A DNA stretch of 64,000 nt from Maylandia zebra (taxonomy: Eukaryota; Chordata; Actinopteri; Cichliformes; Cichlidae): assembly GCF_041146795.1 (NCBI RefSeq), contig NC_135177.1, positions 18,985,560 to 19,049,559 of the forward strand, read 5' to 3'. Below, one piece after another: positions 1,494 to 59,911 of the stretch. How positions within the stretch are numbered: the first letter of the stretch is position 1; each line of letters opens with the position of its first letter. The position numbers were made by a program, and so were the translations under genes. The notes beneath the pieces were generated by a model. That model saw only the letters and a program-made list of their open reading frames with translations, had not been told where the DNA came from and searched no databases.

Positions 1494-7205
<5,712 letters not shown>

Positions 7206-20703: not shown

Positions 20704-22425
20704 TCTTATGGGGGGGGAAGGGTAGGCAGGATTAGTTATAGTGTTCAGCCCAGTTATTGGTCACTGGACACAAACAATGGGAGGGCTAAAGAGGATTTGT
20801 TCTTATGTGTACCCCCCTCCTCCTCTCCCGCTGTCCTGTAGTGCCAGTGGGAAGTGCACGGTATAGAGGTCCAGGCTGCACCCAACGGGGGCGGCCCCGT
20901 GCATCTGGAAGATTGGCCCGTCTGCCCGTCTAGCGTTTTCCCATCCCCCACCCCTCCCCCAGCCCAGGGTGGGACTTGAACTACATATGGACGAGACAAA
21001 AACACAGCCACATTCGTCACCAGTCAGACGAGACCTAGTTCAGGGGAGCGTGCACATCGGCACAGTCGAAATAAGGAGCTGATCTGCGATGCGAGTGGCT
21101 GTAACTTGCTTAAGCGAGGTGTTGTGCCATTGCACAATACCTGCAGTTTTTTTTTAGTCCCTGTGTGATTTAATCAGCTGGTTAGAAGTTTCTAAATATA
21201 CCAGATCTGTCCTCACACTGCCACCGCAGAGGATCAAAGTTGTGTTCATTAAAGGGCCCAAGTACTGGGACTGCGAGTCACATCATTTTGATTGTAATAA
21301 CACGGGCAGGTATGCTCGCTCTGTTACATACTGACAGAAGTCAGCCTCACCTTAACCGAGTGAGGTTGAAAAGTACAAGAGGTAAAATGAGATGGACGTG
21401 AAACCACTAAGAAATATTTTTTTAAATCTCGATGTGTTAAACTATTTGAAATTGTGTGAGTAATCAGGTGGCTTATTTACTCATTACTAGCAGACATATA
21501 CAATAACAATACTGTGCAGAGCAAAATGTGACTGAAGTAAGAGTTAATTTATTGACCTGCAATTTTAGACATTAGGAATGACTTTTAAAAAACTTTATAA
21601 GCTTTTTATTGGTTTATTTATGTCTTTATTGTCATATTGTTCTAGTGCCTTAGATGACCTAAGCATGAGGGGCGTGTGTGATTTGAAGAGCCAGGCATGC
21701 CCAATGTAGACAGTGCTAATAGGCAAATCCAGAGCAGAATGCCTCCTTTGTGTCAGTGAGCTTTAATGAGCCTGTTGTGAGATCTCTGTGCAGACAGAGA
21801 AACACTCTGCAACAAGGAGGACCATTGTGCGATGAAATGATGTTTGTGCATGTGTAAATACGTGCGTGTGTTTGAGTCACGGCGTAGTCTGTAGGTGGCA
21901 GTTGGCTCCATGTTTCCTGGAATATTAATAAATAATAGGCACTCTTAAGGAGTAGGCAGCTAACGATACACTGAAGCAATAATGAAAATTACAGTGAAAA
22001 ATAGCTTATTGTTAATTAAGAGTGTAAGCCAAAATGCAGAATATTTAAGAGAAAATAAGCAGGAACGGGTAGAAATAATCCTGTTTGTGTCATAAAATAA
22101 AACATTATCTGTTCCGCTGGCAATCTGAGCCGAGGGCGATGACTGAAAGGCAGATTAGATAGAGCTTAAAACAGGAAATAATCCACAGATTTTAGTAAAT
22201 TTTGTGTAGCTGATGTGATAGTTGCTGTCTTGATTAAAAAGTCACTAGTTTTACCTGTAAAATGTCAAAAAATGGTTTAAAAATGTCCTAAAATTTATTT
22301 AAAAAAAACTTTTGTTCCAAAACTGCGTATGTGTAAATGAAGTGTTAAGTTAACCTGGTTTGTTGGACACCATCAATGCTGTGACCTTTCTTCATCTATG
22401 ACTCCCTTCTGTTTCACCTTCGCAG

Positions 22426-23741
22426 TGGCTACCATGACAACAGAGGCAACTGCCGTGACTGAGGCAGACACTGAGGGCAAGCAGAAGACCAGTAGTGCTG
22501 AGCCCGAACCAGAGAACAAGCAGAAGGCAGAGGCGGCTACATCTGACCCAGAGGGAGAGAAGTCGAGCACAAAGGCCCAGGAACAGGTCACTGAGCCTGG
22601 GCCTGCCGAAGCAGCGACCTCCCCTGAGGAGGAGCAGCTAAAGCCTCGTACCAGAACCTCTGCTGGCAAAGGCCTTTCTCGTCTCTTCTCCTCTTTCCTC
22701 AAGCGCCGATCGCAGTGCTCAGAGGAAGAGGTGTTTGAGGCAGAAAAAGCCAAAGACGAAAAGGCAGACAAAGAGGAAAAAGTAGATAAGAAAGAAGAGG
22801 AGAAGGTGGAAGAAGGGAAAAGTCAAGACAAGGAGGCCAAAGCAGAGGAGGAAAAACCAGAGGTGAAAGAAGTGAAAAAGAAAGACGACAAAGCAGAACC
22901 TAAAGAAGAGAAAAAGAACGTGGAAGAAAAAGTAGAGAAGAAAGGTAGCAAAAAGAAAAAGAAAGAGGCCAAGAAAAAAGCAGAAGAAAAGGATGAAGAG
23001 AAAGTAAAAAAGGAGGAGACAAAAAAGGGGGAGGAAAAGTTGGTGAAAAAAGAGGAGCAAAACGAGGAAGGGACAACACAGCAGACTGTAGAAAAGGAGG
23101 AAAAGCAAGTGGAGAAAAAGGAAGAGAAAAAGAAGGAAACTGCTGAGGTCAAAGGCAAGGCGGCAGACGCTGGAAAGAAGGAGGAAGAAAAGGTTGACAA
23201 GAAGGTGGCAAAGAAAAAAGAAAAAGAAGAGAAATTAAAGAAGAAAGAGGAGGAGAAAGCAAAAAGGAAAGCAGAGGAAGAAGAGAGGATAAAAAAGAGG
23301 GAAGAGGAAAAAGCAAAGAAGAAAGAAGAAGAAAAAGCCAGAGAAACCGAGAGAGCGAAGAAGAAAGAGGAGGAAAAAGCTAAGAAGAAAGAAGAGGAAA
23401 AAACGAAAGAGGAAAAAGCAAAAACAAAAGAAGAGGAAAAACCAAAAGAGGAGTTGAAGAAAAAAGAAGACGAAAAGGTGAAAGAAGAAGCAAAGAAGAA
23501 AGAGAAAGAAGGGGAGGAAGCAAAGCCGGAAGAAAAGGAGGAAAAAGAAGAGAACAAAGAGAAGAAAAAAGACAAGGGAAAGAGCAAAGGAAAGAAAGAG
23601 GAGAAGGAAGTGAAGGAAGTGAAAGGACCAAGTGAGGAGCAGGTGAAAGCACCGATTGCTGCTCCTGAGCCCGAGCTTAAAACTGAGCCAGATATTGAAC
23701 AGGCTGCTGATCAGCACTCTATAAGCAGCACAGAGGCGCAG
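22426..23741 (+). other. epb41: epb41 exon 1: Lys/Glu-rich headpiece (436 codons)
   Basis: The exon starts after an acceptor, carries eight non-coding bases, the ATG at 22434 and 436 codons up to donor GTGAGT at 23742. Residues about 1-85 are ordinary acidic sequence ending in [20 protein letters not shown], a serine- and arginine-containing stretch. Then about 270 residues are almost only Lys, Glu, Ala and Asp in KKEEEK-like blocks, likely a charged single alpha-helix or disordered region. Mammalian 4.1R has a much shorter N-terminal headpiece. Long - strand open frames here are mirror images of the GAR/AAR codons, not genes. Confidence 0.85.
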
Positions 23742-26700
23742 GTGAGTCCTAACAATCTCACATTTAGAGTACTTGTTCTAAGATTCGCTGTGATTAAGAT
23801 GAAAGTAGAACCAGTAGGCAGTTGGCTTAAATTAGCATGATCACTGGAAATGTAAAGATATGGCAGCCTCTCCTAAACAGACCTCCAAAACTTACGGGTC
23901 AAACAATATATTTTGCCTGTATATTTCTACCAAAAAACAAAGCTAACACTAAAAACAGACCGTATTTATTTGGAGTAATGTGCAGTTCTATTTTTAAGCT
24001 GACTGCCGTGATTTCAGACTGTTTGCAATGTCCTTGTGATAACAAGATCCCAGGAAGCCTGACCTTGATGGAAAAGAGGTATTACAGACTTTCAGAGGTG
24101 CTGTAGACCGACTCCAGACGGATTTATCTAACTCCTCTAACTGTATTTTCTAAAACAAGGGCTAAAAAAGAACATCACTGCAGACAAAGGTTATAAAAAA
24201 AGCACTTCATGCTGCTGATTGGGTTTTGCTTTCTAATGAATTTTTTATGTGGACAGCTTGCTCAGTGAGCATCACTGTGCTCACTTGGGCTTAAAGGCTG
24301 GTCTGAAACAAAGATGACCCATGCTGGTTTGAACTAACGCTAGTATCAACCGCTCGGGTTCATCCTGGGTTATTTGAGTACTACCTTAGTATGGTGCTCT
24401 GTATAATGTCTCCCACTTTCTCTTTCATCTTTGTAACACACTTTGGCAATTGTCTGGTTTTGACTATTTTAGCCAGCCCAAGAGGAACACAAGGAAGAGG
24501 CTATGATAAAAGAGCCTGAAGCAGTGGAAGAAGTGAAACAGGAGGACACGGAGAAAATAGAGGAAGAACCAGCAGAAAAGGAAGAGCCAATCAAAGAAGA
24601 GGAAAAGGAACAAAAGCAGGCAAAGAAAGAGAAGCCTGCAAAAGAAAAGACAGAAAAGAAGACTGAAGAGGTTAAAGGCTCTAAACGTCAGAAGACCATG
24701 CAGTGCAAAGTCACCCTGCTGGACGACGCTCAGTTTGAGTGTGAACTTGATGTAAGCAAACCCTCCCAAAATGCACCACTGTTGCGTTTGCTTTTCTGTG
24801 ATGATAAACATGGAAACTGAAGAGTTTCTCTTGCCGTGTGTCCCATGTCTGCGTTTCTCTTTCTCATTTAGAAACATGCTAAAGGCCAAGAACTTCTTAC
24901 AAAGGTGTGTGACCATGTTAACCTCCTGGAGAAAGACTACTTTGGCCTGGCTCACTGGGAAACCCCAACCAGCAAGGTAGGATGGTTTTACCCTTCTGTA
25001 GTGTTAATTACTTGGAGCATAACTGGATGTTATGAATGACAGTGCAAAAAAAAGTGAGCAAATTTTCTTGCATTTCTTCCGTTTTGCTCAGACATGGTTG
25101 GAACCCACCAAAGAGATACGGAAACAGGTCCCAGGTGCTGTCTATGAGTTTACATTCAACGTCAAGTTCTACCCTCCTGATCCAGCTCAGCTTACTGAAG
25201 ACCTAACCAGGTGAGCAAGCATCAGCTTGGAGGAATGGATCAACATGAGGCAATAGGGAGCTTTTGCACTGCATTTATTCAACCCAGGATAAATGTTCAT
25301 AGACTCAATTCCTTAATCGTTTCACACCTTTTCCAGGTACTTTCTGTGTCTCCAGCTGAGAAAGGACATTATGCTTGGTGTTCTTCCCTGTTCCTTTGTC
25401 ACACTGTCCCTGCTGGGCTCCTACACAGCCCAGTCAGAACTCGGAGAGTATGACCCCGAGCTCCATGGAACAGACTACGTTAAAGATTTGAACCTGGCCC
25501 CCGGACAGAGCAAAGAGCTGGAGGAAAAAGTGATGGATCTGCACCGCACATACAGGTCATTAAGGAGTTGTCTAGACACGCCCTTTTCACAGTGTTCATT
25601 TAAGCCCAGTGTGCATACATTGAAGGAACCTAATTCATTTTCGAAGCTGCTTGAAGATGATTGAGCCTCAAAAATGATTCTGACAGTAAAATACGTCTTT
25701 GAATTAAACGTTATCGTGTGTGCCTCCAGATCAATGAGTCCAGCCCAGGCAGACCTGCTGTTTCTGGAAAATGCCAAGAAGCTCGCCATGTATGGAGTTG
25801 ACCTGCACCAAGCCAAGGTATGTTTATTTTTATTTTTAAAATTATTTTACTGGTTTGGATGAATGGTTTGCTTCTTAACACGTGGTCCAGTCTTTTTCAT
25901 AGAAGCATGTCACGAGTATGTATGCATGTATTGATTTTTATTCGATTTTAAAATGCTCTTTTTACAATAGCATCATTGTATTGCAGCAGTAGCATCCATA
26001 TTTAATTACAAAATTGATGTCATCCCCCTTTGGAAAAAAAAAAAGAGAGATTAATAACATCCTAAACTCCATGACCTCAAACAGCATTCGTGTTTCGTGA
26101 GAAAGTCTGCCCCCCGGTGACTGATTATTGCAAGAGCAGGCTGGCGGTGTTTGGTCAGGGCTGTAAATGTTCCGTGGTGTTTCTTGCATGCAGGATCTGG
26201 ACGGTGTTGATATAATGCTGGGCGTTTGCTCCAGTGGTCTGATGGTTTACAAAGACAAGCTGAGGATCAACCGTTTCCCTTGGCCCAAAGTGCTCAAGAT
26301 CTCATACAAACGGAGCAGCTTTTTTATCAAAATCAGGCCGTCAGAGGTAAATCTCACTTTACATAGTCTGTATGTTTGACCTGTATTGATTTTTGTATTG
26401 TTCTATACAGATCCAATTTCCATAGATTTCCTCTGAGCTTAGCTTTGAAAAATGTAAAGAACTGATTTCTTTTAATAACCAATAGATTGTGTGTGTGGGG
26501 GGGTTTACTCTAACCCCCTAGACTTATTTATTATTTCTCAGCAGAAGTGGCTGGTATAAAATGTAATAGTACTGTTAGTTTATATTGCTATTGGTTTTCT
26601 TATACACATAAATGTAACTGTACGACTGAGCCAACTGATTGCAAGAATGATAAGATACATCCAGCTTTTCAGATGTCTTTCAGTTTCTTTCACTATTTAA

Positions 26701-27386
26701 AGAAAACTGTGTTTCACAATTGCAGAATAATGTCGCTATGGAGTCATTGAATTTGACTTTTGTTTCTTTGCTTTTAGCAAGAGCAGTATGAAAGCACCAT
26801 TGGTTTCAAGCTGCCCAACTACAAAGCCTCAAAGAAGCTGTGGAAAGTTTGTGTTGAACATCATACCTTCTTCAGGTAACAACGCTTTGATTCTGAGTGA
26901 CACTTAGGTCCTCCCTATCCACTTGTTAATTGGCTAACTCCTCACTCCACCTTAAGCCCTGTATTGGCACCACAGCAGTTTTAACCACAGAGGAAAAGCT
27001 GAACACTCTTAAAGCTTTTGTCTGTTTAATGAGATAAATCCAAACATGTTGCTAATCTTTTTACATAACACGAATCCTTTTTTTTTTTTTAAAGAAGACA
27101 GTGCAGGGTTTATAATTTTGAATCCACAGTGTTCATGTAATGGTCAAATAATGTGTAGATTAAAATGTAATTCTTATATCTCTTGCTCAGGGTTTCAACA
27201 GTGGAGCCGCCCTCTTCACGTCGCTTCCTCGCCTTGGGCTCTAAGTTCCGGTACAGCGGTCGTACTCAGGCCCAGACCCGCCAGGCGAGCTCCATGATCG
27301 ACCGGCCGGCACCTCGCTTCACACGATCTGCAAGCAAGAGGCTGTCTCGCAACCTAGATGGAGGTATGCGTGAGTGTATGTTGTCA

Positions 27387-27423
<37 letters not shown>

Positions 27424-30400
27424 TGCAATAAACCACAGGTCCAATAAGGTGCCCTCTGACTTCTTTTGCTATAGAACCTGGAGATGAAACTCTCCAGTTT
27501 CTGCAGGTAGTCTCGGCATCAGCCAGGACTCAGGTTGATGATTGGTCACTGCTGATGGTATCTGAAAGACCCCAGCCTTCTTCCGAATTCACAGGTACTT
27601 CGAAGTGTGTGAAGTGATGCCTTTTGGCATACCTTCTACTCGCAGATTGCTTTGTAGGATCTAACAGCCTTTTTGCATCATTTTTCCATTCATCTTTGCT
27701 TCCATACCTGCAAAACTGTTGCTGTTCAGCACAGTTAGCTTGTCTGGAAAGTGACCTATTCTGATACATGAGATGGGACACGTACCCTGTACTTTCCCCG
27801 GTGTGACTCCACAGTATTGTTGGTTACTGAAATCTGAAAGAAATTAAATAAATTTCCTCACAAATGTAACTCTAAACAGGTATTTCCAGTCTTGAGGCTC
27901 TTGTTCCTCTTTTTTTTCATTTCATAACTTTGCACTTAACGTGTGTTGCACAACCGCTTTCATTTGCTTATTTTCATTTGCCTTTATGCTTGAATTTTTG
28001 ACTGACTGACCTCCCTCATCACTGCCCCAGTGCCCATCATTGTAACGGGTTCCATCTGGAGCCTGTTTGTGTTCCAAAGTGCAAAAGGCATCTTTCATTC
28101 ATCTTTATACTAACTTCGCTTTACTGGACTCACAGAAGTCTGGCACAAAAGCTTGAAATCTTGCTTGCTTGAAGCGCTGTGCAGCATTCACAGCCGGTCG
28201 TCATCTCTGCAGCAAAACCATTACATAACTGGCATCACCTCGTCATGTCTTCACAGCCGGAAGGGAGTTTGAGCAGAATTTCACTCAGTCCTGGGAGGAG
28301 GAGGAGGGGCGTACTGTTGGCACGGAGACTGGGACTGCTGGTCCTCAAACCATTATCCAGACAGTCAGTCAGCCATGGCTGGATCTGGTGAGCGATGACG
28401 ATCACCAGCAGAGGAGAACGGAAGATGAATGGTTTATTCTTCTGGATCATCAGCCTCATATTCCATTTATCTCACCCTTTGATTTTGTTGAAGAGCCAGG
28501 TATCTACCTTTATAGTGCATGGGTAGCGTCAAATATCGCAAATTTAACATGCACTTCATTCATGTTGCCACCATACTATATGCACACGGCACTACTCAGT
28601 AAGAAACCAGGCGCGTGGCTCCACGTGGCCTTCTCGTTTCAGCTGGTTGAAGTTTGTTGTTGTTTGATCACCTGATACAAAAAATGTTGCACCTTGTTTT
28701 TTGATGTCAGCTGAAACTAGCTTGGCAAAAACGAGCTCTATGGACCACCAACTGGAACCAGTGGTGATAAAACAGGATGACTGGTTCCTGTACTTTGACC
28801 GTCTGCTCAGCGTGTCTCCCTCTGAGCATTTTGAAAAACTTCAACGTGAGTTTCTTTGTCTGGCTTTCTGCAAAAACCTTCACACTTTTTTGGGTAAAAA
28901 ATGGTAAAAAAAACAATTAATTGCAGCACTTAAATGGTTTGTTGTATCACTCTTCCAGTCTCTACCACGGAGGGGGAGGAGGAGGAGCAGGTCATAAGCG
29001 TGAAAGAACAGCAAATGATCACTGAGGAAATGATTGGGAGGATGCGGGAAACAGTGATGTTGGTGGATGCATTTACAGAGAAGGAAATTTTGGAAGGAAG
29101 ATTGAGGGACGTGAGGGATCTTGAGGAAAGGCTACAAGAAATTGATGAAATTGCAGGGAGAATTCAGCATGCAGTAGAGGAAGAACTGGGGGAGGAAGAG
29201 GTAGAAAAGCTAAAACAAGAAGAGAGAGACATGGAGCAGAAACAGTTGATCCAAGCCAAAGGTGTAACAGAAATGGTGGTGAGGAAATCTGTGAGGAGAA
29301 GAGTTATAAAAGAGGGTGAAGAAGGCGAAGTGGACGAATTGGAAGAACAAATAAAAGAGGTGTTTTTAAAGGACTTGTTGCCTGAGGAGGAAGACATCAT
29401 GGTGAAGCGGGAGAGCGAAAAACAAGTGGGCAAGAAAGTGGTAGAAGCGTTAAGGGAAGGAGAGAGCAATTTGGAGCAGAGACAGTCAATCCAATCCAGG
29501 GTTATAACGGACATGGTGGTGAGGAAATCTGTGCGGAGAATAGATATAAGTGAGGGTGAAGTGGATGACTTGGAAGAACAAATAAAACGGGTGAAGTGGG
29601 AGGGTGAAGAAGACACAGACGATAGCTTTAGAGAGAAACTGCGTGAAATGGAACAGGAGTGGCAAGATGCAGACGTCGCCGGCTCTGCTGCTGTCGCAGG
29701 ATACAAGAAGGTTCAGCATAGGACTGAGAAGATAGTGACTATTGTACAAGAGAGGGGGCAGCAGCAGGAAGGCATGGAAGACGTGCAGGGACAGTCTAGT
29801 GTTGCATCAGAGGAGATGTTAGAAAGACAGGAACTGTGGCGTAAGACAGAAGTGGTGGAGGAGAGGCCACATAGGGAGGTTCCAGAGAGGTCAGAAGGTC
29901 TGTCTCAGGCGAGAGTTGATGATGTTTGGTTCATACTTTTAGATCAGCCTCCACACAAAGCTGGTTTCAAAACACCAGGTAAAGTATGCTAATCCCTCTG
30001 ATATTCTAATATCATCAAAACCATAAAGACATACATGTCCGGAAGCACTAGCATTATATTAACCAAACCGGCTTTCGTTTTGCTCTTTTCTTTTGCTTTG
30101 ATTTCTGCAGTGAGGTGTAAGATATACTCGACTTTAGATTTTCATACGGCCTATGTATTTTTTAAAGAGAGAATAACCACCACTGCCCAGCTTCTCTTCC
30201 AGCTGGGCATTTGTTTTCCGTCGCGCTCAAATATTCTGTCTTCACTTTCCTACATAGTTGCCGATGTGGAACGTGTTCAAGTGGACAAGGGTGGTCATTT
30301 CAACCCCGAGAAAGAAAAACCACATATCAGCGTTGAACGGGTTGATGACTGGTTTGTGTTGCTGGATTTTATTCCCCGACAAAAGCTTTTTGGGCCATCA

Positions 30401-33400
30401 GGTACTGCTCGGTCTTGTTTTTGTTTTGTTTTTTGAAACTTCCTTGTGCTTTATTTTGTCCTTACTCGCTCATGAAAGAATTGCATGTTAATGCTGGCGA
30501 TTAAAGATGCCTCTCCTGACTCTGCTTACCAGTTACTCACATGGAAGAGAGGAAAGAAATAGCAATCGAAGACGGATCGAGATATATAGGAGAAAAGCTA
30601 CAACACCAAGTGTCAGACAAAGTTGATGATTGGTTTGTGTTACTGGATGTTTTTTCAAGACAAACGTCACACGCACCACCAGGTATTCATAAAAGTCCCC
30701 TGTGCTGGCTCACAGCTTTAGCAGAACCAATTATTCTAAGCACTGCAGGTACTCTTATTTTCAAAGTCCCTGAGCTTTTTCCTCTTTTTTTTTTACTAAG
30801 TCACCTTTTCAGAGCGAATTGCTGCTCACCCAGAGGAACGTGCCTCTCTGATTGAAGTAACAGCTCTTGAGCAGAGAGAAAGAAGAGTTGACATTTTGGT
30901 TGAAGGTGCTGACGCAAAACAAATGCTGCCAGAAAGGGAGGGGGTAGCACTTCTACAGGATGTGAAAGAGCGAGAAGATGACTGGTTTGTGCTGCTGGAT
31001 GTTCCCATTAGGCAGCCCTCATTTGTGGCACCAGGTAGAGCAGATTTTCCGCTGCACTCCTGCTGTTTCTTCATTCACTTTTTGCCTCAAGTGTCATACA
31101 GCGAGTTTTCCGTTTCTTTGTTGGTAGCTTCCATGGCTGAGTATGTTGAGGTTTACACCAGAGAGAGTGTTTCTGCTTTGACTGAAGCAGAGGCTGTTGA
31201 TTCCAGGCGGGAGCTTGTAGTTGAGGATGCTGCTGTGGAGAAAGTGGAAGCAGTGGCTCCCAAGCAAGGTATTCCAGATGTCCCTATAAGTATCTGCAGC
31301 TCACAAATGTGCTTTTATAAGATCAACAAAAGATTTATCTTGTGCTTCATAGTAGCCGGTGTTGAAATCAAAATTTTGTTTTGCAGTTTCTATGTCGATG
31401 CAGACTAAAATCTATCCAGATGTTTCAACTGAAGTGAAAAGTATAGAGCAGAGATTGCTTCAGATTGACCAGGTTACACCACAGCCTCCCCAGCCAGAGA
31501 GAGAGGATGACTGGTTTGCTCTGTTTGGTACTGCACGTGATGAAGTCATGATACCAACAGGTATTACAGTAAATTCAGACTGAAACATAATATTCTAAGA
31601 GGACTATGGTGGTCATAGCAGTATCACTCAACGCCTTTGACTCTGTCTGTGCCAGTGACTCCAGCTCAGATCGTTCCAGAAATGAAGACTTTTGAGGTTG
31701 AGGTGACCGAAAAATGGAAGAAGACAGTAATTGGTGCGGACAGCGGGCAAGACAGGACAAGTGTGTCTGAAATTAGAGCGAGCCAAATTGCCTCCCTCTC
31801 TGAGAGAGAAGCTGATTGGTTTGTCCTGTTTGAAAAGCCTGTGGTCGTACAACCAGGTAGATTTCTACGCCGAATGGGTGCTGTGTGAAGCTGTGCGCAA
31901 AAAGTTTGCATCAGATGTATTTACGTTTATGTTTGTGTTTGTTGCTGTAGTCAAACCTATTATTGATCTAGTGGCAACCACTGAAGCAAGAGTGAAGATC
32001 GTGGAAGGTGTGAGGCCACCTGTGGAGATGGTGAAGATTGAAATGGCAAGAGCAGGAAAAGTGGACGATGATTGGTTTGTGCTGCTGGATGTAGCAGCAA
32101 AAGCACCAGGTATTCTGCTGCTTGTATGGCCATGCGGCTTTGCTATGAGATGCTATCAGACTGAATAACATGGCAACTGTGCTCGACTTCTATTATGTTG
32201 TACTAGGAGCACATTATAAACGAATGCAGAAATACTGCACCAGCCTTAGTTATATTGTGTTTGTATGGTGGTGCAGTATGTCAGGGGAAAATGCTCATTT
32301 AAGATATTTAGGTAGAGGGAATATTTAACTTCATGCAGATCTCATTTTAGTTTTTTTTTCTGTACTCTGTCAGCGGCTGGGGTGGAACGCATCCATATAT
32401 ATCCTGATGTAAGACCTGCTAAAGAGCTTACACTCACAGAGCAGACAGCACAGCAGACAATTACAGTAGTGGAGAGAGTACGGCAGCAGCAGCAGGATGT
32501 GGTGCAGCCACGTCCAGCAGTGAGAGAGGTGGAAGATGATTGGTTTACTCTTCTGGATAAGTCCCTTAAGAAATCAGGTATAATCCCAAAGAGCTTGGTA
32601 TGCCAATACATACGAAACATTTCTCGCTGAGGTGAGTAACACCTGGTTGTGTGTTTGTATTAGCCGCTGTCTCGGAGCGCGAGCAGCTCCCAGCACAGGT
32701 CACAGTTCCTGCTCCTGCCGCGGCCACGAAAAAGATTACGATTTCTGAGACGAGACCGGGGTTTGAGAAACGGATCCTGGAAGAAAGACCCTCGCAAACA
32801 CGTGTCAGTGATAATTGGTTTGTTCTACTCGAGGGTGACCTCAAAGCGTCAGGTATTTTTTTCCTTGTGTGGAGTTTTTTCGTTTTGTGTGTGGCTAAAA
32901 AAAACCTCACACGGTCATGCCTTGTTTGCTTCATAAAAACACTCATTTCTAACAGCTGCTACCTCTGCAGACTGGCTCACAGCTAGCATTTTCCATTATT
33001 CACGGACCTTCGATTGAAGAAATAATGCTTTCTTAACGTCGTCATTTCCCTGGTTCAATCTCATTTAGCTTTATGCCTTTTTGCAGCATTTGTTTGGAAT
33101 ATAACAAGAACCGCTTTTACTGATCCACTTTGTGGACATCTGCTTCTGGCCCACATCACATCCTTACGCTTATGCGTGCTTGTCCTTTTAAATGAGAGCA
33201 AAGGAAACAAATGAGGTACAGTATACCTGTGCAGCATTGAGGCTAAGTGTGCCATATGCTTGTTAAGCTGTTTTATTTTTAATGCTATATCTGTTTTCGT
33301 GTGCATTTTACTCACCGTGATCCTCACAAAACTCTCCACTCGCAGCCTGCTCAGTGCTAAAACCCAACATTCACTCATTTCCATTTTGTCTGCGTTTTGT

Positions 33401-36400
33401 CTAGCTGCGAGCGCCCAGAGGGGCACGCGCCCTGTCAGTGCTCCGGTCTTCTCCCAGGCTGCTCTGATGGAGGCGGGAATCCCCATGGCCACTCTCGACC
33501 AGCCTCAGACCTCCACTCCAATCAAAACCAGCCGCCAGGAGGAACGGAAGCTGCAGGTCACCGTAGAAGCTGTGGAGCCCTCAAAAATCGAAGCCGGGGC
33601 TGACGCCAAGGTATTCAGTTACTCTGATTGCTGTTGTAAATGTTGGTAATGTAATATGTGTGGAAAAAAGTGATAACAAATGTTGTGTTTTCATAGAAAG
33701 TCTTTTATTGTGAATGGTACAACGCCTTTGTGGTGAAAGATGCTAAAGTATCTGAGATCGCTCTCTGTGTCTGAGTGTGAACTGTGTATCTCTTGCTGCT
33801 GTAGCCAGCAGTGTGGAGGGACCAGAGAGAACTAGACTCATCACTGATATCCACCATGAATGGGGACATCCAGGTTAGTGTCAGATGCAGGCGTCTTGTA
33901 TGTCAGAAGACGTGCTTATACCACGGTTGAGATCTGAGTGTTAACGCCAACATTCAGGGGATGCTAACACGTCTTCCTCTCTCCTCCCCTGGGGTAGCAC
34001 GAGTCTGAGACGACGAGCACGGAGGTGGTGCGAATGCGAAAGGTCAGATTCTTAGTGCCGTACATGCTACCGTAGCCATTTTCTCCACCTCCATTTCTGA
34101 TGATAAAGAGCTTCTCATCCCAAAGACTAATATCACCCTCTTCTCATGTTGTGCTTCCACACAGCTAGGTCGTAAATGAAACCTACATCAGGTTCGATGC
34201 ACAAGAAATGTTTTTATTTATTTTTTATTAATTTCATAAAAGGTAGAAAATATAACAATGGCTAGATCGCAAACAGTTTCACAGTCTCAGAGTACGTTAA
34301 CACCTACTGGCTGTTTTTAAAAGTTGAAACAGTTACATCATTTCTTCCCATTGCTTGCTGTTCTTAACACTGGAATGCACACATGCATGATTATAGATTA
34401 AATGCACTAAAGAGGCATGGTAACTGGTGTTTTATCACATTTATGTCACTCCATCACTTTTTTTTCTTTTCTCGGTATAAGAGTAGAAATCTTCGGTCAG
34501 TCCTCCAGAGCCATCTGTTCTTTGCTTTGTTAGTGTAGTGCAGATTTTGGTCCCTTATGGTCACACAAACGACTGTGCATGCACTCTTACTCTTACTTTC
34601 TCTGTTTTATTAACACATTAGTGAACTTCGTAGTGTGCATGGAAGAGGTGTGGTTGATGCCAGCATAAAGGGAAACTGAAACAAACCCACCTTCTTTTTT
34701 TTGTTCTTTTCATTTTTCACAGAAAAGAGCTAAGAAAATTGAGGGTGACTCAATATATATCAGACATAGCCAATTAATGTTGGAGGTTGGTATCCCTTCT
34801 GGAGACGTCGGTCTCCAGCTGCATTTTCTTGCTCTTTGGCGCACCGGCTGCTGTTTAACATCACGCTTGCATGCGGCATGATTCACACTTTTCTCGTCGG
34901 CGTTAACGAGCGGCTGTAGATTACATGAAAAATGTGTGTTTGTGTGGGGCAACCGACTCTGATCCGATTGATTCAGGAGAGTGCTGTTGAGTTTAGAACA
35001 ACAAGAAAAAATGACTGGGTTCAATCTGAACTTGTTCAGGATGCTGCACTCCTGATAATCCACAAACTGTTCATAGTGATTCACCGTGCGGTGTTGGTGC
35101 GGCACCAAGGTCTAAGAACGGTGAAGCTTTCCTTAATTGTTTTTTTAATGGCAGGTTTCATTCCGAGCTCATGTTTTATGCACTTATTTATTCAAGATCA
35201 TCAGTATTCTCCTGTTCCTGCTTTTGCTCTGTCCTTCATCTCATTTTCAGACTTGTCAGTAATGCATTTCATTTTCTTGACAATTATGGAAATGAGTGTT
35301 TTAGTCTGTAGAAATGAAAATGTGTGTGTGTGGGGGGATCCCTGCTGTGTTGTGTATGAAAGAAATGCCATTTGGTGAAACATTTATCATTAAGTTGCTC
35401 TTTTGCACCACAACAGCTCATGATTTACAGATATATAGTTTGCAGTATGTTCTGTTTATTTGCTATCACATCCTGCGGTTGCCTGTAAAGATCAACTTGG
35501 TGCTAAATGTTGCCAAATCAGCGCTTTGACCGTTGTTCATTTGTCTTAAATGAACGGGGATTTCATTTGGAACAAGCCTTCATCTTCAAGAGCTTTTACA
35601 ATGTCTGCTGTCACCGTCTTTCTCCTGCTCTTTGGTTTGCAGCCTCTTCTCTTAACATGTTTCACTGCGAGCCTAATGCTGTGAAATAGATGCTCAGTGT
35701 TGCGCTGTATAGTTTAGGCCCTCTACCCAACCACGGCTCCAAATGACTCCAAATATTTATCAGCTTGATAAATCGCGGCTCCAGCTCTGCTCTCATGAAT
35801 CAGCTGCCAGGTTTAATTTGCATTTTGAATAGGGGACACTGATAATTTTTTAAGGAATCTGAAACATTTATGTTTGCTTAGAATCACGTTAACCCCGCTT
35901 CTGCTTATTTAATCATCAATAAATCAACCAAAGTTGCACAAAACAGCAAAAAAACACCAAATAATCTGACTTTTTTTTTCTTTTAATCTCTCCCTCTCTA
36001 CGACACATCTTCTGCCTTCCCTCTCCCTTCCCGGACAACCTCTGTGTACTTTCTGTCCTTGTATTATCCTCTTTCTCCATCCTCCATCCTTTTCCCCCCC
36101 CTCAACCGCAACGTCTTTCCCATCTCGACTTTCCTCTGTAAAGGATTTCGATAAGCCTCAGGAGGTGCTGCTCAGGCATCACGCCAGCATCAGTGAGCTG
36201 AAGAGAAACTTCATGGAGGCGGTCCCAGATCACAAGCCAAGTGAGTGGGACAAGCGCCTGTCCACACACTCTCCCTTCCGCACCCTGGGAATCAACGGTC
36301 AGCCTCTGCCCAGCGCGGATGGGGTAAGTCTGGCACAAAAAACAACTGATCCTTTTAGTTCATTTAGTCTATCAGTTGAAGAATTTGAGAGAAAAAATAG

Positions 36401-39400: not shown

Positions 39401-42400
39401 CCCCCACCCCACCCCTGGTTTCTCCAACCAGAATCAGACCTCTCCTTCTCCAAAGACTGATCAGGACTGGAAGTGATAACGCAGTGCTGTTTGCATTTTC
39501 TGTGACGTCTTTTGGACTTTTAAAGATACAAGTTTTGACTTTTATCCAGAGGTTTTTAATGTTTGACCGCATCACTTTGAGCCTGCTTTTATACACGTGT
39601 TGAGGTTCATTTATATTGTCAGTAGTCTTTAAAAAAAGAAAAAGATGACCACTGTGACTTTTTTCCTGAGCTCACATGCACTAGAAAACAGCAGTCTTGT
39701 TAATGGGGGAAATGATCAGTACCCTTTCACACTATAGTATTTCTTGAGGCAGCTTAATTGTTATTCTTAATAACCTGTTTGTCCTCCACCAGTATTTGGA
39801 AAGGGAGTATGTAGCAGCTGCAAGAGATTCCTTGTTGCATGACTTTTTGACAATCAACGTTGACCAAAGAATAAAAGCCATTCCATATTCAGTTCATATG
39901 CTTCTTATTTCCATTTATGGAATTGAATTATTTCATATAAACTTCAGGTTTCATAATATTCCACTGGTCCTTCCTCTCCAAATTTAAACAGGAGAATTGA
40001 ATCATGACGCATTCTATTTATTGTTAAGATGCATGCCATAAAGTTGTAACCATTCATAAAACTTGCTCATCTACTTTTAGCATGCACCATGTAGAAATGA
40101 TTGTGGCCATTGTGTGTTGTTAAGCTATGGCATTAAAACAGGGCTGATTTTTATTACATAAGTGCAATCAGATAACCAGAGTCTCTGCAGTACCTCATAA
40201 AACCTATACTTTGTGCAGCCTAATCCACTCTATGTACATATTTTTAGCTTGCATGCATGTGTATTTATCATTTTCACAGTATCAGTTGGAAATACTTCAC
40301 ATAGTAACTATTTTATGTCTTTTTTAGAGTGTGTGCATTAGACCCCTAAGCAATGGTTCAGACACAAAGACTGCACATGAGGAAACCAGCAGTAGTTTGG
40401 AATTTACAGACCTACCCATCAAGAGCGAGCCCGAGAGTGTCGAAGTCCACAGCGCTACTGTTGAGAAAGAGTTACGTGATCAGGAAGAGGTTGTAGTGTT
40501 TGAGGCGAACTTTGTGCCAATCGTAGAGGTGGAAATGGCACAGCTGCCTCCTTCCTTTGATCCCTCCTGTAATGCTTTAGAAGTGATCCCGGAAGAAGAA
40601 GGATCGTGTCCCGGAGTGTCGGCTGACTCTGGGAGGATAGCTGGATCTTCCCCAGCTTCCTATTTCTGGAGCGATGGTCCACAGGTCATGCGCTGTTTCC
40701 AGGTAGCCTCCTGACTCCCTCGGGGTGATGCTGATTATTTCCCTTCTTGGCTGACACACTCCTTTGCAGCACCGATACAAATAAAAAAACTTGTGACTCT
40801 CCTAAGGTGGTATTCGGTTTGGTGTGAAAGTGCTTGTTATTGTCAGATGGAACTCAAGACGCTGCAGAGGTGCTGCACAGTGGTGTGCTAAGTTTTTAAC
40901 GACGGTGACGGGTCACTGTAAAAATCTCTGCTACAAAACCATTACTTTTGATCATCTTTCTAACGCACCTGTGCCGTTTATTCACCGTTTCTCTTGGAGT
41001 GGTTGGTGGTGGGAAGTGACGTTAACACGTTGATTCTTCTGTTTCGAATACAATAAACTAATCTGGTGAGAGGAAATAGCGGTTGTGGTGAAAGTCTAAT
41101 TAAAGAAAAAAAAGGCAATAGCTAATGCATGGTGTGAAATAAAGTGTTTGCTGTGGTGCAAAGTGTCTGGTTAAACAGCCACTCATGGGGCTGTGCTCCA
41201 TTTCACAGCCCCCTCTGGTGCAGACGCAGACTGTCACCATCACAGCCGTCTCCAGCCCCTTACCCAGTGGCATCTCCACCACAGAGGTCCCTATCATCCC
41301 GACTAGGACCTTCACCTATGAGTCTTCAAAGGTAGGGGCTCCAGCAGCTGCTCAGCCCAGATCTGTCTCAGCTATAGGCAGTCAGGTTTGCATGGTGGAG
41401 GTGGCTTCAAAAACTCCCAATAAGGAGGTCTGGGAGGATCAGTAGAAGGGCTCCAAAATAAGAATGAAGCAGCCTCGTGCCTTCCTCGGTGAAACCTTGA
41501 TGTCACATGATTTAGAAATGATTATTCAGTACATCCCCCTTTTTTCTTCTTTCCTTCAGGTGACCGTTGATGGGACAGAGGAGGACAAAGATTGCTCAAC
41601 AGTATCCAGTTCCCAGACCATTACCTCAGAGACCACCAGTGGCACCTCAGTGACGACTACCACCACTCACATCTCAAAGGTCAGCAGAGCAAATTAGGCT
41701 CTCGCCTTTCCCGTTCTATTACTCTTTATATGCCTAATATAGATTTTCCTTCCTGTACAGGTAGTAAAAAGTGGATCTTCAGAAACTCGCGTGGAGAAGA
41801 GAATTGTCATAACCGCAGACTCTGACATCGACCAAGATAAGGTACAAAATCTACACACAGGTTTAGGCGTAAGGCGGTATTTGCTCTCTTGGCTGAGTTT
41901 TATATGGAAGCTTGTTTGTGCAGTAAAAGGAAAGAAAGCCTTAACTCAAAATTTCAACAACTGGAAGGAAATTCCAAGATAGTTAGCAAAGACGTTACAC
42001 AGAGTGCGGTGCAAAATAACAGCATTTCATTCCAAATTTTTCAGATGCAAACTTGTCGTGTAATCGTCTCTGAGGTAAAACAATATTATTTAATCACTGC
42101 ATATTCAGTACGGGTGCGCATTTTGAGCTACGAGTGCACTTGCTGCCAAATGCAGTGCTGTGATTAGTCAGATCTGTATTTTTTACATGTGAAAAATCAA
42201 AAAAATTGAGGTTGAACTGGAAAAATAAATGCCACAACCTCATCCCGCAAAATCATGTGAGCGGTTGAGGTGAACAGCTGCATTAATAGTAGGCGAGTCC
42301 AAAAAATATTTTTAATGCACAGAATATTCTAATCTTATCCAATTTTTTTTCAGCACCGAAAACAAGCTTCCTTAGTTTTAGATACTACTCTTTAATCTGA

Positions 42401-53441: not shown

Positions 53442-55836
53442 ATGTTACATTTATATCTTCAGGGTTACCTTTCTTTAATTCTGTTGAATGTCGCATCAGG
53501 ATTTGGAGGTAAGCAGTTCTGCAGATAATGTCTGGATCTGATTGGATAAAAATAAACGCTTTTTAACTATGCTTGCTACATTTGTAATTAAGTAACTAAA
53601 GGTTTATTCAGTGTACATCATCTTGGCTCCAAAAATTATTTAACAACAAATGCAATTTCATTATATGCCATGAATCTAAAAATATGCATACTGCTAATCT
53701 GATATTGCATATTTTGGTGTAAACTTTCTAACCAGCAAAAATGAGGTACTTGCTTCCTTGAATGCGATGCATGTATTAGTACATTTAGACTCATTATTTA
53801 ACTTTTGGCTTAACAGATACTGAGCCCATCTTAGCTGTTCAAGAAGAAGATGTAGCTCTCACTTGTTTCAGTCAAAATGACACGGATCCAAACAGCTTCT
53901 ACAGATACAGCGTGACAAAGTTTGCTACAGATCCTAATCAAGTGAAGGATATGTTTAAATGGCCCACACCGAGCAACGATGTGTATAAACGTGTAAAATG
54001 GGTAGCTGATGGAAATGGACAAAAATGCTTAACTCTGACAAAACTTCAAAAATCCGACGCAGGACTGTACACTTGTGAAATGTGGAAAGGATGGGACCGT
54101 GTTGCGGCCAAAAACATATCTTTGAGAATAAAAGGTAAAACTTTTTACTACTTTCTCTTTACTTTGCAAGCAAATATCTCACTGGTGAGTCACATGATTT
54201 GTTATGATCTTGCAGACTGCAAAGTCCTTGAACCTGTGAAGGCCGCACCCAGCATGCCTGCCAAGTTAAACTGCCCAGTAAACATGACAAGTGGACAACA
54301 AGAACCTCAAAACATCTCCTGGGCAATCCAGAAAGGAGACATGCGTGAATCACTCGACTCCAGCAAAGCCAAAACTGATGGTACATCTCTGACTTTCCAG
54401 TCTGTGAACACCAGCGACAGTGGCTGGTATACATGCAGTTACACGCTTGGTAAAACTCAGCGCTGCTTTGACACCAATCTACAAGTACAAGGTCAGTGAT
54501 TTTTTTCTTTGACATGTCAAAAGCAATGATCAAACATACACACAAGTAATATGTAAGATTCCTGTTTTTTCACACGAAGCTTTTGTGACCACAACGGTTC
54601 CGGTTATTCCAACAAAAACTCCGAGTCTGCCAGGTCTGTTTGCCTTTGCTGTCTTGCACATTCATTAAATCATATTTATGATTATATGTTCACTATATTG
54701 TTGCTTTAACTTTCGCCTTGTTCTCTTTAGCACCAAAAGCCAATGATATATCTCTGTCGCAAAGGAAGGAGGAGAGCAATGATGCTTTAATTGCAGTTGT
54801 GGTCTGTGTCATTTTGGGGATGATCATAATTGCTGCTGTGATTGGACTCGTTGTGTACCGCAGATGCAAAACCCAGAGAATCACACAGTTACACCAGAGG
54901 CGCTTTAACGGTTTGATCTGACTTTAAACTCTTTCATTCTTATCACACTGTCATGCAGTCACACTAACTTTACGTAGTGTTGAGTTGTTTAAATATTTCT
55001 GTTTTCTCGTTATTCAGGTAATTGTATGTCTACATATGAGATTGTTGCACCTTTGACGAGTGAGTGCAAACTCTCTTCTTACTGCGCTTTTTAGCCACTG
55101 TGATGCCTTTCTGTTCAACACTTGACTTGAACCTTTTTCTTTTTTCACAGATACTCCAGGCCAGCGAATCAACAGTCTGTATCAAATGCCAGACGAAAGC
55201 TTAGTTACCTGTAAGTTGTATGAGGTTTTGCCTCCTTTATGAAATTGTTCAAATCTTATCATGTCAACAAAAAACAACCCAACAACAACGAAAACCAAAG
55301 AAACCAAAACATTTTTCTCTCCTTTGTTGCAGTCCAATAATAAATATTTTCAAGTAAGGAAGAAGATTCTCCTTTGCAGTTATCTCATCTTTGCAGTGTG
55401 GGTTGGATTTTCAAAAGTAGATAAGTTTGCATGCTTATAATGTAACCAATCATGTTTTTGTAACTTTATTTCTTTAAAATCTTGCATGCATGTCTGTAGC
55501 AAGGCAAAGGAGGAGCTGATTTACTGTGCATTTCTGTTTCTTGAAATAGAAAAAAGTCTGTTTTCAAACAGGTTTTGTAAACCACATCTGTTGATGATTT
55601 TGAAGTTTGTGATAAAGACAAAGAATAGCATGTGGTTTCACTCTAGTTCACAGCTTGTAATAAATCATAAAAACTGGTTGTTGCAGTGGCTGCTTCTCTT
55701 TTTAAATGTAGTTGCTGTTGTTGTTCCTCATTACGATCATCCTGAACGACCTCGTACACATGAGTCTGAGGAGAAGAGCACCAACATTAGTGAAATAGGA
55801 CATGTGAGCTTGACTCGGCATGATCCTGTTTTTTGA
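53442..55836 (+). CDS. Two-Ig-domain type I membrane receptor with ITIM-like tail (receptor A)
   Basis: No named family recognised. Exons: 53442-53508 (signal peptide MLHLYLQGYLSLILLNVASG), 53817-54134 (V-like Ig domain, Cys pair ALTCFS and GLYTCEM), 54216-54491 (second Ig domain, KLNCPV and GWYTCSY), 54580-54633 (Thr/Pro stalk), 54731-54910 (linker and membrane span within ALIAVVVCVILGMIIIAAV), 55018-55059, 55151-55210, and a last exon most likely 55712-55836 after AAATGTAG. All junctions are phase 1. Several N-glycosylation sequons are visible (NDT, NIS, NMT, NTS). The tail holds STYEIV, which fits the ITIM pattern (S/I/V/L)xYxx(L/V/I), plus a second tyrosine in SLYQMP. This suggests an inhibitory leukocyte receptor. 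It lies next to aif1, the position of NCR3/LST1 in tetrapods; orthology is not shown. An alternative 3' end through exon 55334-55353 and acceptor 55686 also keeps frame. Confidence 0.75.
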
Positions 55837-55844
55837 TATCTTAC

Positions 55845-58085
55845 CATTTCAGTACTGGGCTGATCATTAGCTGCAGACCAAGAAGGAAAACATTGTGGTC
55901 ATTGTGGAAATATTCAATCTCCATCAAAGCCTTAGAGTAATTCATGTTGTAGCTGTTGTTTGGTTGTAATTTCTGGAGCACATTCAGTACCTGCATCCTT
56001 GTTGCGCGTCCTCTTGGTGTAAATGTAGAGCCCACCCGCCACTATCAGGATGACTAGAGGCAGTCCTACCCAGGCAGGTGTTTGCAGAGCTGGGGAAAGG
56101 AATAATTTTCCGATCAGTTTGGTCATGAATAGAAGGTGCATTCAGCAGACAAGGCAACAGTAAAGTAATTCATGCTTACGGTCAACGGCACGCCACTTTT
56201 TTGATGCCACCCGAGCGCCCTCTCTGTGCACAGAGCATGTTATATCTTCGTATGATCGCACTGATGACTCTGGGAGAAATAACTTCTTTATCAGAGTATT
56301 ATTGATATTCATTAATTCACTCTGCCAACCTTTGTGGGCACTTCCTGACCAAGTTAATTCAAAGTCATTTTCACATTCTGTGGCACAGGTAAGTGCACAG
56401 GTCAAGGTGAGATTCTCTCCTCTGAGCCCTGCAGGCATTGCAGTTACTGTAAAAATGTAGAACATGAGAGATGAAACATCAGATATCGATAGCTATCTCT
56501 CCATCTCTCCATCTCTCTCTCTTTCTCTCTCTCTCATATTTGTATGTGTATATATATACACTTGCATCTACAAAGTTTTAATACTTACCATCAAGGGTAT
56601 GCAGCCTGAATTTATTGAGCACATCTTTTTTATCAGTGGAGTGTGAACACTGGTAGTCTCCAGCATGCAGTGAGCTCAGTCTGCTAATGACCAGAGAGGA
56701 ATCTTGATTAACATGTGATGCTTTTATTTGGCCATTATCAGGTGAGCTAGCATCTCTCAGTTGCTTTTCACGCAAAGTCCACTTCATATCAGGAGAGGAA
56801 GTGTTGCCACAATTCAATAGTACTGACTCACCCACTGTGGCAAACACTTCCTCTAGTCCATCTGGGGAAAAGGGAGAACTGGTCACACTTTGTACGTACT
56901 GAGCAACATCTTTCATTTTGTGTACAGGCTGTGTAGCACCTTCTACTGTTGTCGTATAACTGATGGTGGCTTTAACAAGGTCATTCTGAGTTAGATGACA
57001 TCTCCATTTTCTGTGGTGGTCTGTCGATTTTGTATCAATGATCAGTTTAGAGAAGCAATTACGTGGATGTTCAATTACAAATCTGCTTCCATTTATTGGT
57101 GTATCATCCTCAGAGCTCCAGTTGATATGAAGCTCTTTGCGGTTGAAACAGGGGTCAGCTCCTTTATCTGTACTGAGGTAACAATGAAGCTCCATCTTTT
57201 TGTCATTTGCAGGAAGTGACCTTTCAGTAACTGGTGGATAAAAAAAAGTGAGCATTGTGATATTTTTGTTTACTATTTCTGTATGTAAAACAAAAAAAAC
57301 AAAAAGAAGGTGTGAAGCAAAAATACTTACTGCAAAGAATTCGAAGTGAAACACTTGACTTGAGCGTTCCACTCTTACACGTGTAAAGCCGTGCGTCATT
57401 GAGCACCAGCTGAGTAATCTGCAGAGAGCAGTCTTTGAGCAGGCGATACCTGTGGCTGCTTGGAGCTGTCGGTTTTTCTTTCTTTATAATCTCATCAGTT
57501 AAATTAAATTCTGCACTCATGTCCCAGCTGATAGAAGAACAGGTTTTGATAGAAGGGATACCACATGGCAAAGTAACATTATCTCCTTCTACAGCGACCA
57601 TTAGCAAAGGGTTCCCTGAAGAAAATTACAGAAAAATGCATTTTTTTTAAATGAAAAAGATTTCTTAAAATCTATATATGCCATAAAATGAAAACTGTAA
57701 CACTTGTGTACATGTGAGCAGTTCACAAAGGACTGAGTGAATATCTGAGATCACAATTATTTTGTGAGTTATTTTTATTATGGTTATTTTGCTATGATAC
57801 AATATAAGGTAAAAAAAAAATCAGTAACCACTGACTAATTATTTTTCTGTGACACCAACAAGTTTTGTCTCATAACGGTGCCTCGTGGGTTAGAAAACAA
57901 TCAGAAAGGATGAAATCAAGCCATGTCCAAGAGGGTTTTACAAGGTACCGCGTGTGAATATATTACATCATGTGTATATATATTTATAGGTGTTATATGT
58001 TTGTTTAATTACCAGTTGGATGATGTCCACTTGCTGCCTGTGTGAGATAAAAAAGACAGATTACCAACAGTGAGAGCGAGTCCAT
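55845..58085 (-). CDS. Four-Ig-domain type I membrane receptor (receptor B)
   Basis: No named family recognised. Exons in transcript order: 58013-58085 (signal peptide MDSLSLLVICLFYLTQAASG), 57331-57615 (Ig1, TLPCGIP and RLYTCKS), 56940-57230 (Ig2, ELHCYL and KWRCHL), 56589-56861 (Ig3, LLNCGN and DYQCSHS), 56180-56446 (Ig4, LTLTCAL and DITCSV), 55991-56089 (short linker and membrane span in LPLVILIVAGGLYIY, then KRTRNK), and probably 55845-55870. All but the last junction are phase 1. The cytoplasmic tail seen is short, without a signalling motif. After 55845 the true end is unclear: reading through the donor gives a tail ending at 55737-55739, antisense to the last exon of receptor A. An activating or adhesive partner for receptor A is possible but inferred only from pairing and opposite orientation. 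Confidence 0.7.
56499..56535. repeat. CT-rich simple repeat in receptor B intron
   Basis: CTCTCC units pass into CT dinucleotides between the third and fourth Ig exons. Confidence 0.85.
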
Positions 58086-58842: not shown

Positions 58843-59289
58843 TCAGGGATTAGTCACAGGTCTTGGACGTGCTACAACTTCATAGGACTTGATTTTAAGC
58901 ACAACACTGGCAACTCCTCTCAGATCAGGCAGTGAGGTCTCGCTCTCAGGCAGGAGGAACTGAAAATCTCTCAGCAAGTAGGCACTGAACAGAAAAAGCT
59001 CCATTTTGGCCACAGACTCTCCCAGGCAGAGCCGAGCCCCCCCTCCAAAAGGGATCAGGTCACGGGTGGAGCCGCCTCCGCTTCCCCCTCCTTCATTCAG
59101 AAAGCGCTCTGAAAGAGAGAGTGTCAATACTTTATTTGAACTCTTCTGAGCCAAGTGAAATGAACACAAATCACACAGCGTTTGGGACAGTACCTGGTTT
59201 GAAGCTATATGGGTCAGGCCAAACTTCAGGATCATGATGTGCTCCAAAAAGATTAGGAATGATGACTGTGTTCTTAGGGATGAAATAAC
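58843..59289 (-). pseudogene. cyp21a2: Steroid 21-hydroxylase (CYP21) 3' fragment, two last exons only
   Basis: CYP21 is the microsomal P450 that makes deoxycorticosterone and 11-deoxycortisol in interrenal or adrenal tissue. Here only two exons are seen: 59194-59289 ([20 protein letters not shown]) and 58843-59108 (ERFLNEGGG, then heme-binding loop FGGGARLCLGE with its cysteine, ending RPRPVTNP and a stop at 58843-58845). Both keep frame and match CYP21 better than other P450s I know (TVIIPNL, GARVCLGE in human). No upstream exon (ExxR helix and earlier) was found between 59290 and the start of the duplicated Ig sequence at about 59690. The gene therefore appears cut off by the duplication breakpoint and cannot encode an enzyme. 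Confidence 0.75.
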
Positions 59290-59690
59290 CTGCAATGCTA
59301 AACATGAGGAGGAGTCAAATATTTGTCATGAGGCCAACTAAAAACAGTGTTAATAAGCAACTTAACAACATTAGAAAATGTGTACGTCAGACATTTGTCT
59401 GTGTATGAATGTTCATTTAAATAGAAATATGCTGTTTTTCCAGGTTTCATGTGTGTGTGTAGTTTATATTCTTATGTTTTCTTATCTTTGCAAATTTTCT
59501 TTCTGTACAAAAACAAAAAATAAGCAACTGATTATTTGTCGGTTGTTTGCTTTTTTTTGCTTTTTTTTTAAACTTCTCCGTAAGAACTCTCTGTTATTAT
59601 TTTTCTCTCCCAACTTTAACTGCAAGCGCAATGATTAATTGTATTTATTGGGCCAGTTTTGTGGCTTATGCAACAAAACTGGCAGTTATG
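59290..59690. other. Duplication junction region
   Basis: Between the truncated cyp21 fragment and the second unit lies AT-rich DNA without a recognised exon. One end is cyp21 intron sequence; the other passes into text resembling 53330 onward. The exact breakpoint could not be placed by eye. Confidence 0.45.
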
Positions 59691-59911
59691 GATCGCAGAA
59701 CAACCAAAAGACTGGTTATAGTTTCAAGTCGAGACTTCTGCGTAACGTCAAGGAAATGAAAATAAGTGGAAGCAAAAATAAAAAGGCCTGTGTGTGACTG
59801 ATCTTTGTCTCTTCACTAGCTGTTCCATTTTATGCAAAACCCGGAGAATCACACAGTTACACTAGAGGCACCTTTTTGGATTGATCTGACTTTCAACACT
59901 TTCATTCTTAT

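Follow-up and report, generated by a model that had tools for sequence, protein, structure and literature searches.

What does a run of thirteen consecutive exons with an acidic product do in the middle of a protein 4.1 gene? The question is raised by a stretch of 64,000 nucleotides of Maylandia zebra DNA (contig C11, NC_135177.1, positions 18985560-19049559; hereafter the window), in which a protein 4.1 gene on the + strand carries, between its FERM-adjacent (FA) exon and its U2-type exon, an array of 13 exons (E1 to E13) at 27475-32852 (+ strand). A short motif built around Trp-Phe is carried by all of these exons except E8. Sequence searches covered the genome of 962 Mb in 63 contigs. Judged from the pattern of sequence change, the array is very likely a selected, multivalent insert of short linear motifs; the partner that these motifs might bind is proposed below with much less confidence.

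All 13 array exons are open, have AG/GT borders and lengths divisible by 3, and are bounded on either side by phase-1 introns. E1 (27475-27594, 120 nt) encodes the divergent motif VDDWSLLM (Trp codon at 27543), E2 (28257-28499, 243 nt) DEWFILLD (28430), E3 (28711-28845, 135 nt) the likewise divergent DDWFLYFD (28782) and E4 (28959-29978, 1020 nt) DVWFILLD (29927). The form DDWFVLLD is found in E5 (30258-30401, 144 nt; Trp codon 30350), E6 (30533-30682, 150 nt; 30631), E7 (30813-31034, 222 nt; 30983) and E11 (31951-32109, 159 nt; 32073). E8 (31128-31268, 141 nt) is the exon without the motif, and the remaining copies are DDWFALFG in E9 (31387-31560, 174 nt; 31512), ADWFVLFE in E10 (31656-31856, 201 nt; 31817), DDWFTLLD in E12 (32374-32577, 204 nt; 32541) and DNWFVLLE in E13 (32664-32852, 189 nt; 32816). 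For E7, alternative in-frame acceptors are possible at 30801 and 30834. Spliced together, the array amounts to 3102 nt or 1034 stop-free residues with a pI of 4.6, containing 220 acidic residues against 132 Lys/Arg.

The consensus is roughly [DE]-x-W-F-[VILAT]-L-[LFM]-[DE]. Among the twelve copies, Trp at position 0 and Leu, Phe or Met at +4 are found in all, Asp at -2, Phe at +1 and Leu at +3 in 11, Asp or Glu at +5 in 10 and Asp at -1 in nine, while pairwise identity in the flanking columns is about 3-21%. An earlier note on this DNA had placed the motif at the end of 12 of 13 symmetric phase-1 exons; the count and the symmetry were found as described, but the copies lie near the 3' end rather than at it, with 11 (E11, E12 and E13) to 22 (E2) residues following the Trp.

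The variable acidic surroundings described in that note are equally apparent, both in the low pI of the insert and in the ratio of non-synonymous to synonymous differences (pN/pS). Over all pairs of the 12 copies, the eight codons of the motif gave a pN/pS of 0.28, or 0.21 when the free +2 column was left out, against 0.92 in the upstream block (-14 to -3) and 0.91 in the downstream one (+6 to +11). The synonymous component pS was 0.67-0.75 in all four blocks, so that silent sites are near saturation in motif and flanks alike. Since silent divergence is equal and pN/pS is low only in the motif, selection acts on the peptide itself. The same figures rule out homogenisation or gene conversion, as silent sites are as diverged within the motif as around it. 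Recent tandem duplication was rejected on the grounds of the near-saturated silent sites and of the absence of repeats outside the exons: in a self-comparison of 27366-33403 (E <= 0.01) the repeats were confined to exons. With this degree of constraint, 3102 stop-free nucleotides and 13 proper exons, it is extremely improbable that the array consists of non-functional or drifting remnants, their frames open by chance or the exons hardly ever spliced in, even if the spacers evolve nearly as freely as such a reading would have it.

One observation stands apart. The codon for Asp at -2 is GAT in 11/11 copies that have Asp there, although third-base differences are seen in most of the other codons of the motif; it is possible that a constraint at the DNA or RNA level acts here, beyond selection on the peptide alone.

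A chance origin of the motif was ruled out by composition shuffles and by the rarity of the strict pattern in the genome. Eleven of the 18 Trp residues of the insert stand in the context acidic-Wxx[LIV], whereas the mean over 5000 shuffles was 1.55 and the highest count in any of them 7. The strict DNA pattern for DDWFx[LF][LF][DE] was matched six times in 962 Mb, five times within the array (E5, E6, E7, E11 and E12), the other seven array copies being too divergent for the pattern; the reversed control gave one match in the genome. The sixth match (DDWFPLL, on contig C7) was put down to chance, as it equals the control rate. In the whole-genome sequence searches, which score the best candidates only, a 44-residue composite returned two matches at E <= 0.001, both within the array, the E4 query returned only E4 itself at that threshold, and the E12 query gave four matches up to E 10, all of them in the array.

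The surrounding gene belongs to the protein 4.1 family, based on the order FERM_C (58.3 bits), FA (73.1 bits) and SAB (90.1 bits), each above its Pfam cut-off. The FA exon (27191-27363, +; Pfam PF08736) ends in phase 1 with LDG plus one base at the donor GAG/gtatgc (27363), and the U2-type exon completes the split codon with its first two bases. The latter (33405-33610, +) was recognised by its RPVSAP signature and its donor; its counterpart on contig C21 is a weak match (E 0.6-0.7). Further downstream lie the first SAB-region exon (34723-34785, +), with 76% identity to C21, and the SAB-domain exon (36144-36323, +; Pfam PF04382). The FA exon and the U2 and SAB exons thus flank the array in phase, in agreement with the proposal that the insert separates the FERM/FA part from the spectrin-actin-binding part. 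The label 4.1R is tentative, being based on the closest paralog, on C21, which shares the SAB and U2 signatures, with human 4.1R as background. The 4.1 headpiece (U1) is probably encoded by an open reading frame (ORF) of 499 residues at 22341-23840, which is extremely rich in Lys and Glu and contains tandem repeats with periods of 7-66 bp. At the other end, one exon (41758-41844) exceeded the Pfam cut-off for the C-terminal domain (CTD) with 34.2 bits, covering model positions 52-80 of 107. Among the matches listed, model positions 79-107 were found at C5, C15, C18, C20 and C21 and neither for the window gene nor at C9, and the CTD of the window copy looks fast-evolving or altered.

To what extent is the array shared by related genes? 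The FA family search gave seven strong and four weak loci in the genome, and, apart from the window gene itself, each of the six strong loci was compared over the 30 kb from its FA exon onwards. No array was found within this distance at any of the six, including the closest paralog. Motif and whole-unit profiles reached at best E ~0.7 there, on the opposite strand, compared with <= 5e-6 for the twelve array frames. When the gene strand was searched with a loose regular expression, the three stray hits (C5, C15 and C20) lay far downstream and were discarded, none being of the acidic-Trp-Phe type. Because the 30 kb reach a CTD exon at C5, C15, C18, C20 and C9, the span from FA to CTD is covered at these loci; at C21 they take in FA, U2 and both SAB pieces, but of the three CTD matches only the first, since the second and third lie just beyond. 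The C21 gene is 94% identical to the window gene in FERM_C (51 residues compared), 86% in FA and 76% and 67% in the SAB pieces, and some 1.2 kb, free of the motif, separate its FA exon from its RPVSAP exon. As no array was found at C21 and the window gene has one, one of two close duplicates carries the array; the two copies presumably derive from the teleost genome duplication. The comparison supports the conclusion that the array is not part of the usual 4.1 layout of the Maylandia zebra genome.

The intron from the FA exon to E1 measures 111 bp, that from E13 to the U2 exon 552 bp, and those within the array 86-662 bp. With E1 so close to the FA exon and the introns so short, the array is likely to be part of the same transcript. 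Any exon can be left out with the frame kept, which bears out the skipping half of the claim that exons may be skipped or duplicated without loss of frame, and joining FA directly to U2, with all 13 exons skipped, also preserves it. A G at donor position +5 was found in 1/13 array exons and in 8/12 other exons placed by eye (Fisher p 0.0036), a hint that the array donors may be regulatable. This hint is weakened by the similar overall donor match (6.5/9 in the array, 6.9/9 in the other exons). Regulation of the array by splicing is plausible, at somewhat better than an even chance.

Which partner could read the motif? Known motif classes were compared on the 12 copies, with the patterns of the LC3-interacting region (LIR), the FIP200-interacting region (FIR) and the GABARAP interaction motif (GIM) and the +7 rule taken from papers. 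The other classes were the dileucine signal [DE]xxxL[LI], DxxLL, the clathrin box, LxxLL, the kinesin light chain (KLC) W-acidic motif, acidic-W-acidic and WxxF. The LIR core [WFY]xx[LIV] is present in 11/12 copies, and the same number is retained when an acidic residue or Ser/Thr is demanded at -1 to -3. According to the LIR rules, Trp is the most favourable aromatic residue at position 0, Leu suits +3 and acidic residues suit -1 to -3 (PMC7615515). Val at X1 contacts GABARAP Tyr49 by packing, and replacement of the PCM1 X2 residue by Ile, Leu, Val or Phe strongly increased binding to LC3B (PMC6499816). The partner, which the earlier note had left wholly open, need not remain so, as the LIR core suits 11 of 12 copies. 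The Atg8 (LC3/GABARAP) family would be the most likely of the partners that can be tested by pattern, an assignment that is tentative and clearly short of an even chance. In the open-licence PMC papers DWFVLL occurred nowhere, protein 4.1 was never found together with DDWF, and EPB41, LIR motif and GABARAP were never found together; the one paper naming both protein 4.1 and an LC3-interacting region appeared unrelated.

Several findings weigh against Atg8. E3 has Tyr at +3 and fails the LIR core. Neither of two GABARAP-selective sub-types fits: the GIM pattern [WF][VI]xV is matched by 0/12 copies, and only 2/12 have the acidic residue at +7 that marks the 'LIR core + C-helix' type. A model of one unit, of low confidence (mean pLDDT 65.8), shows WFVL as a short helix and not as a strand. 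Finally, the LIR rule does not demand conservation as strict as that of Phe at +1 and of the hydrophobic residue at +4, which points to a larger hydrophobic contact. For this reason the same multivalent array may instead dock a partner outside the Atg8 family, such as a trafficking adaptor or a regulator of actin or the membrane skeleton, that reads W-F-x-L-[LF] as a larger hydrophobic patch. The short helix of the model and the dileucine pattern, which fits 7/12 copies, point the same way, and we consider such a partner a serious possibility at a little under an even chance. It is held back by the poor fit of the classes compared: after FIR with eight and dileucine with seven copies, DxxLL fits 1/12, and the clathrin box, LxxLL, KLC W-acidic, acidic-W-acidic and WxxF fit 0/12 each.

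The motifs might also fold back onto the FERM/FA part of their own molecule or onto a neighbouring 4.1 molecule and so tune membrane binding as an intramolecular regulator. The position of the array directly after the FA exon, with motifs tethered beside FERM, would suit this, yet the closest paralog, in which no array was found, has 94% identity in the 51 residues of FERM_C that were compared, and that piece bears no sign of co-evolution, which makes fold-back quite improbable. Binding to FIP200 in place of Atg8 appears very improbable: the FIR pattern [DEST][DEST][FWYILV]xx[ILV], although nearly identical to that of LIR (PMC7615515), fits eight of the copies (E3, E4, E10 and E13 fail) and thus fewer than LIR.

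The whole explanation that we favour, at somewhat less than an even chance, is that of an exon-amplified, multivalent motif scaffold with Atg8 as the likeliest partner testable by pattern. Single symmetric exons would have been amplified long ago in one duplicate of a protein 4.1 gene, each motif serving as a docking peptide within a largely unstructured linker between the FERM/FA and spectrin-actin-binding parts. On Atg8, hydrophobic pocket 1 would take up the Trp and pocket 2 the Leu at +3, next to acidic residues at -1 and -2 of the motif. The protein would thereby act as a multivalent scaffold whose number of motif copies is set through exon skipping, and Atg8 proteins, lipidated or free, would be brought by the insert to the membrane skeleton of spectrin and actin, in the manner of giant ankyrins and RTN3L. 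In its full form the proposal is unlikely: up to twelve Atg8-binding motifs in tandem, adjustable in number by splicing, would couple LC3/GABARAP to the spectrin-actin cortex, and the valency would be determined one exon at a time.

The long exon E4 has features of its own. It is acidic, contains an internal tandem duplication (29181-29362 and 29421-29593, 75% identity) and has a predicted helical stretch before the motif tail. In the single-sequence model (mean pLDDT 57.3) helical structure extends nearly as far as residue 295; blocks of pLDDT > 70 occur only within about the first 90 residues, and the motif region is unstructured (< 50). As a speculation from this model, E4 might contribute length or self-association. 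A Pfam scan of 5/13 array exons identified no domain, the best candidate being Phage_scaffold below the cut-off (E 0.43), and a PDB sequence search with an exon profile gave zero matches up to E 10. The six acetyltransferase sequences returned in the PDB search for one 27-residue unit (E ~0.5) were taken as chance.

Elsewhere in the window, two adjoining ORFs occupy 3382-4890 (+), the second of which (3856-4887) contains a reverse transcriptase domain (RVT_1, 69.7 bits) and the first of which reads like part of the same element of the long interspersed nuclear element (LINE) type. A 214-residue ORF at 59885-60529 (+) resembles, by eye, a piece of a LINE-type element. ORFs with immunoglobulin domains at 53789-54499 (+) and 56578-57483 (-) probably belong to neighbouring genes, and a piece at 58843-59325 (-) matches the cytochrome P450 model in its C-terminal part (54 bits).

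How does the array compare with known systems? Mammalian 4.1R is described with 21 coding exons, a variable headpiece, a variable exon 16 and extensive alternative splicing, and shares with the window gene the order FERM, FA and SAB, followed in the window gene by at least one CTD exon; in the main text of that paper 'repeat', 'autophag' and 'LC3' each occur 0 times (PMC10887211). A zebrafish 4.1B paper covers 4.1B duplicates and, in that account, describes no such array (PMC6171929). The array may best be likened to exon amplification in a single duplicate, as in teleost piccolo b (pclob), and not to a proven LIR protein. In pclob a zinc-finger exon was amplified 8 to 16 times in one of two duplicates only, and the two cases share a single exon type multiplied in one duplicate, a conserved core and varied exon length (PMC3484663). 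They differ in the unit, which is a zinc finger plus IZF motif in piccolo b and an 8-residue peptide motif here (PMC3484663). The author reported in 2012 no other extensive case in teleost ohnologs, with esyt1b (nine C2 domains instead of five) as a smaller one, from a screen that relied on Pfam domain counts (PMC3484663). As no Pfam domain was identified in the five exons scanned, the array would probably escape a screen of this kind. By this analogy it would be a further extensive case, besides piccolo b, of exon amplification limited to one fish duplicate, with a short peptide motif invisible to domain-counting screens as the amplified unit.

Like RTN3L (PMC5517149), which is membrane-associated, the window gene has several short motifs within one long region; in RTN3L that region is isoform-specific and the motifs bind Atg8, while for the array both features are putative. 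RTN3L is a reticulon with six working, mutation-tested LIRs in its long-isoform region, a number its authors called unusual, and the long and short RTN3 isoforms have different functions; the 4.1 array has 12 candidate motifs, one per exon, in a spectrin-actin linker (PMC5517149). Giant ankyrin-G binds GABARAP via an Atg8-interaction motif described under its giant-exon domain (PMC9356056). Giant ankyrin-G and ankyrin-B resemble the window gene as spectrin-skeleton adaptors with a large insert, alternative in the ankyrins and possibly so in the window gene, in which the ankyrin motif binds Atg8 and that of the array is a candidate; the ankyrins have a single LIR that binds very tightly and includes a C-helix and a +7 acid, in contrast to the many core-only candidates of 4.1 (PMC9356056, PMC8727931). 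As each motif occupies its own frame-neutral exon, the gene would provide a natural dose series by which peptides dock multivalently on the membrane skeleton. If the partner is Atg8, the spectrin-actin cortex would be tied to autophagy or GABARAP trafficking as by the giant ankyrins, with about twelve sites, and the up to twelve Atg8-binding motifs would be twice the six of RTN3L.

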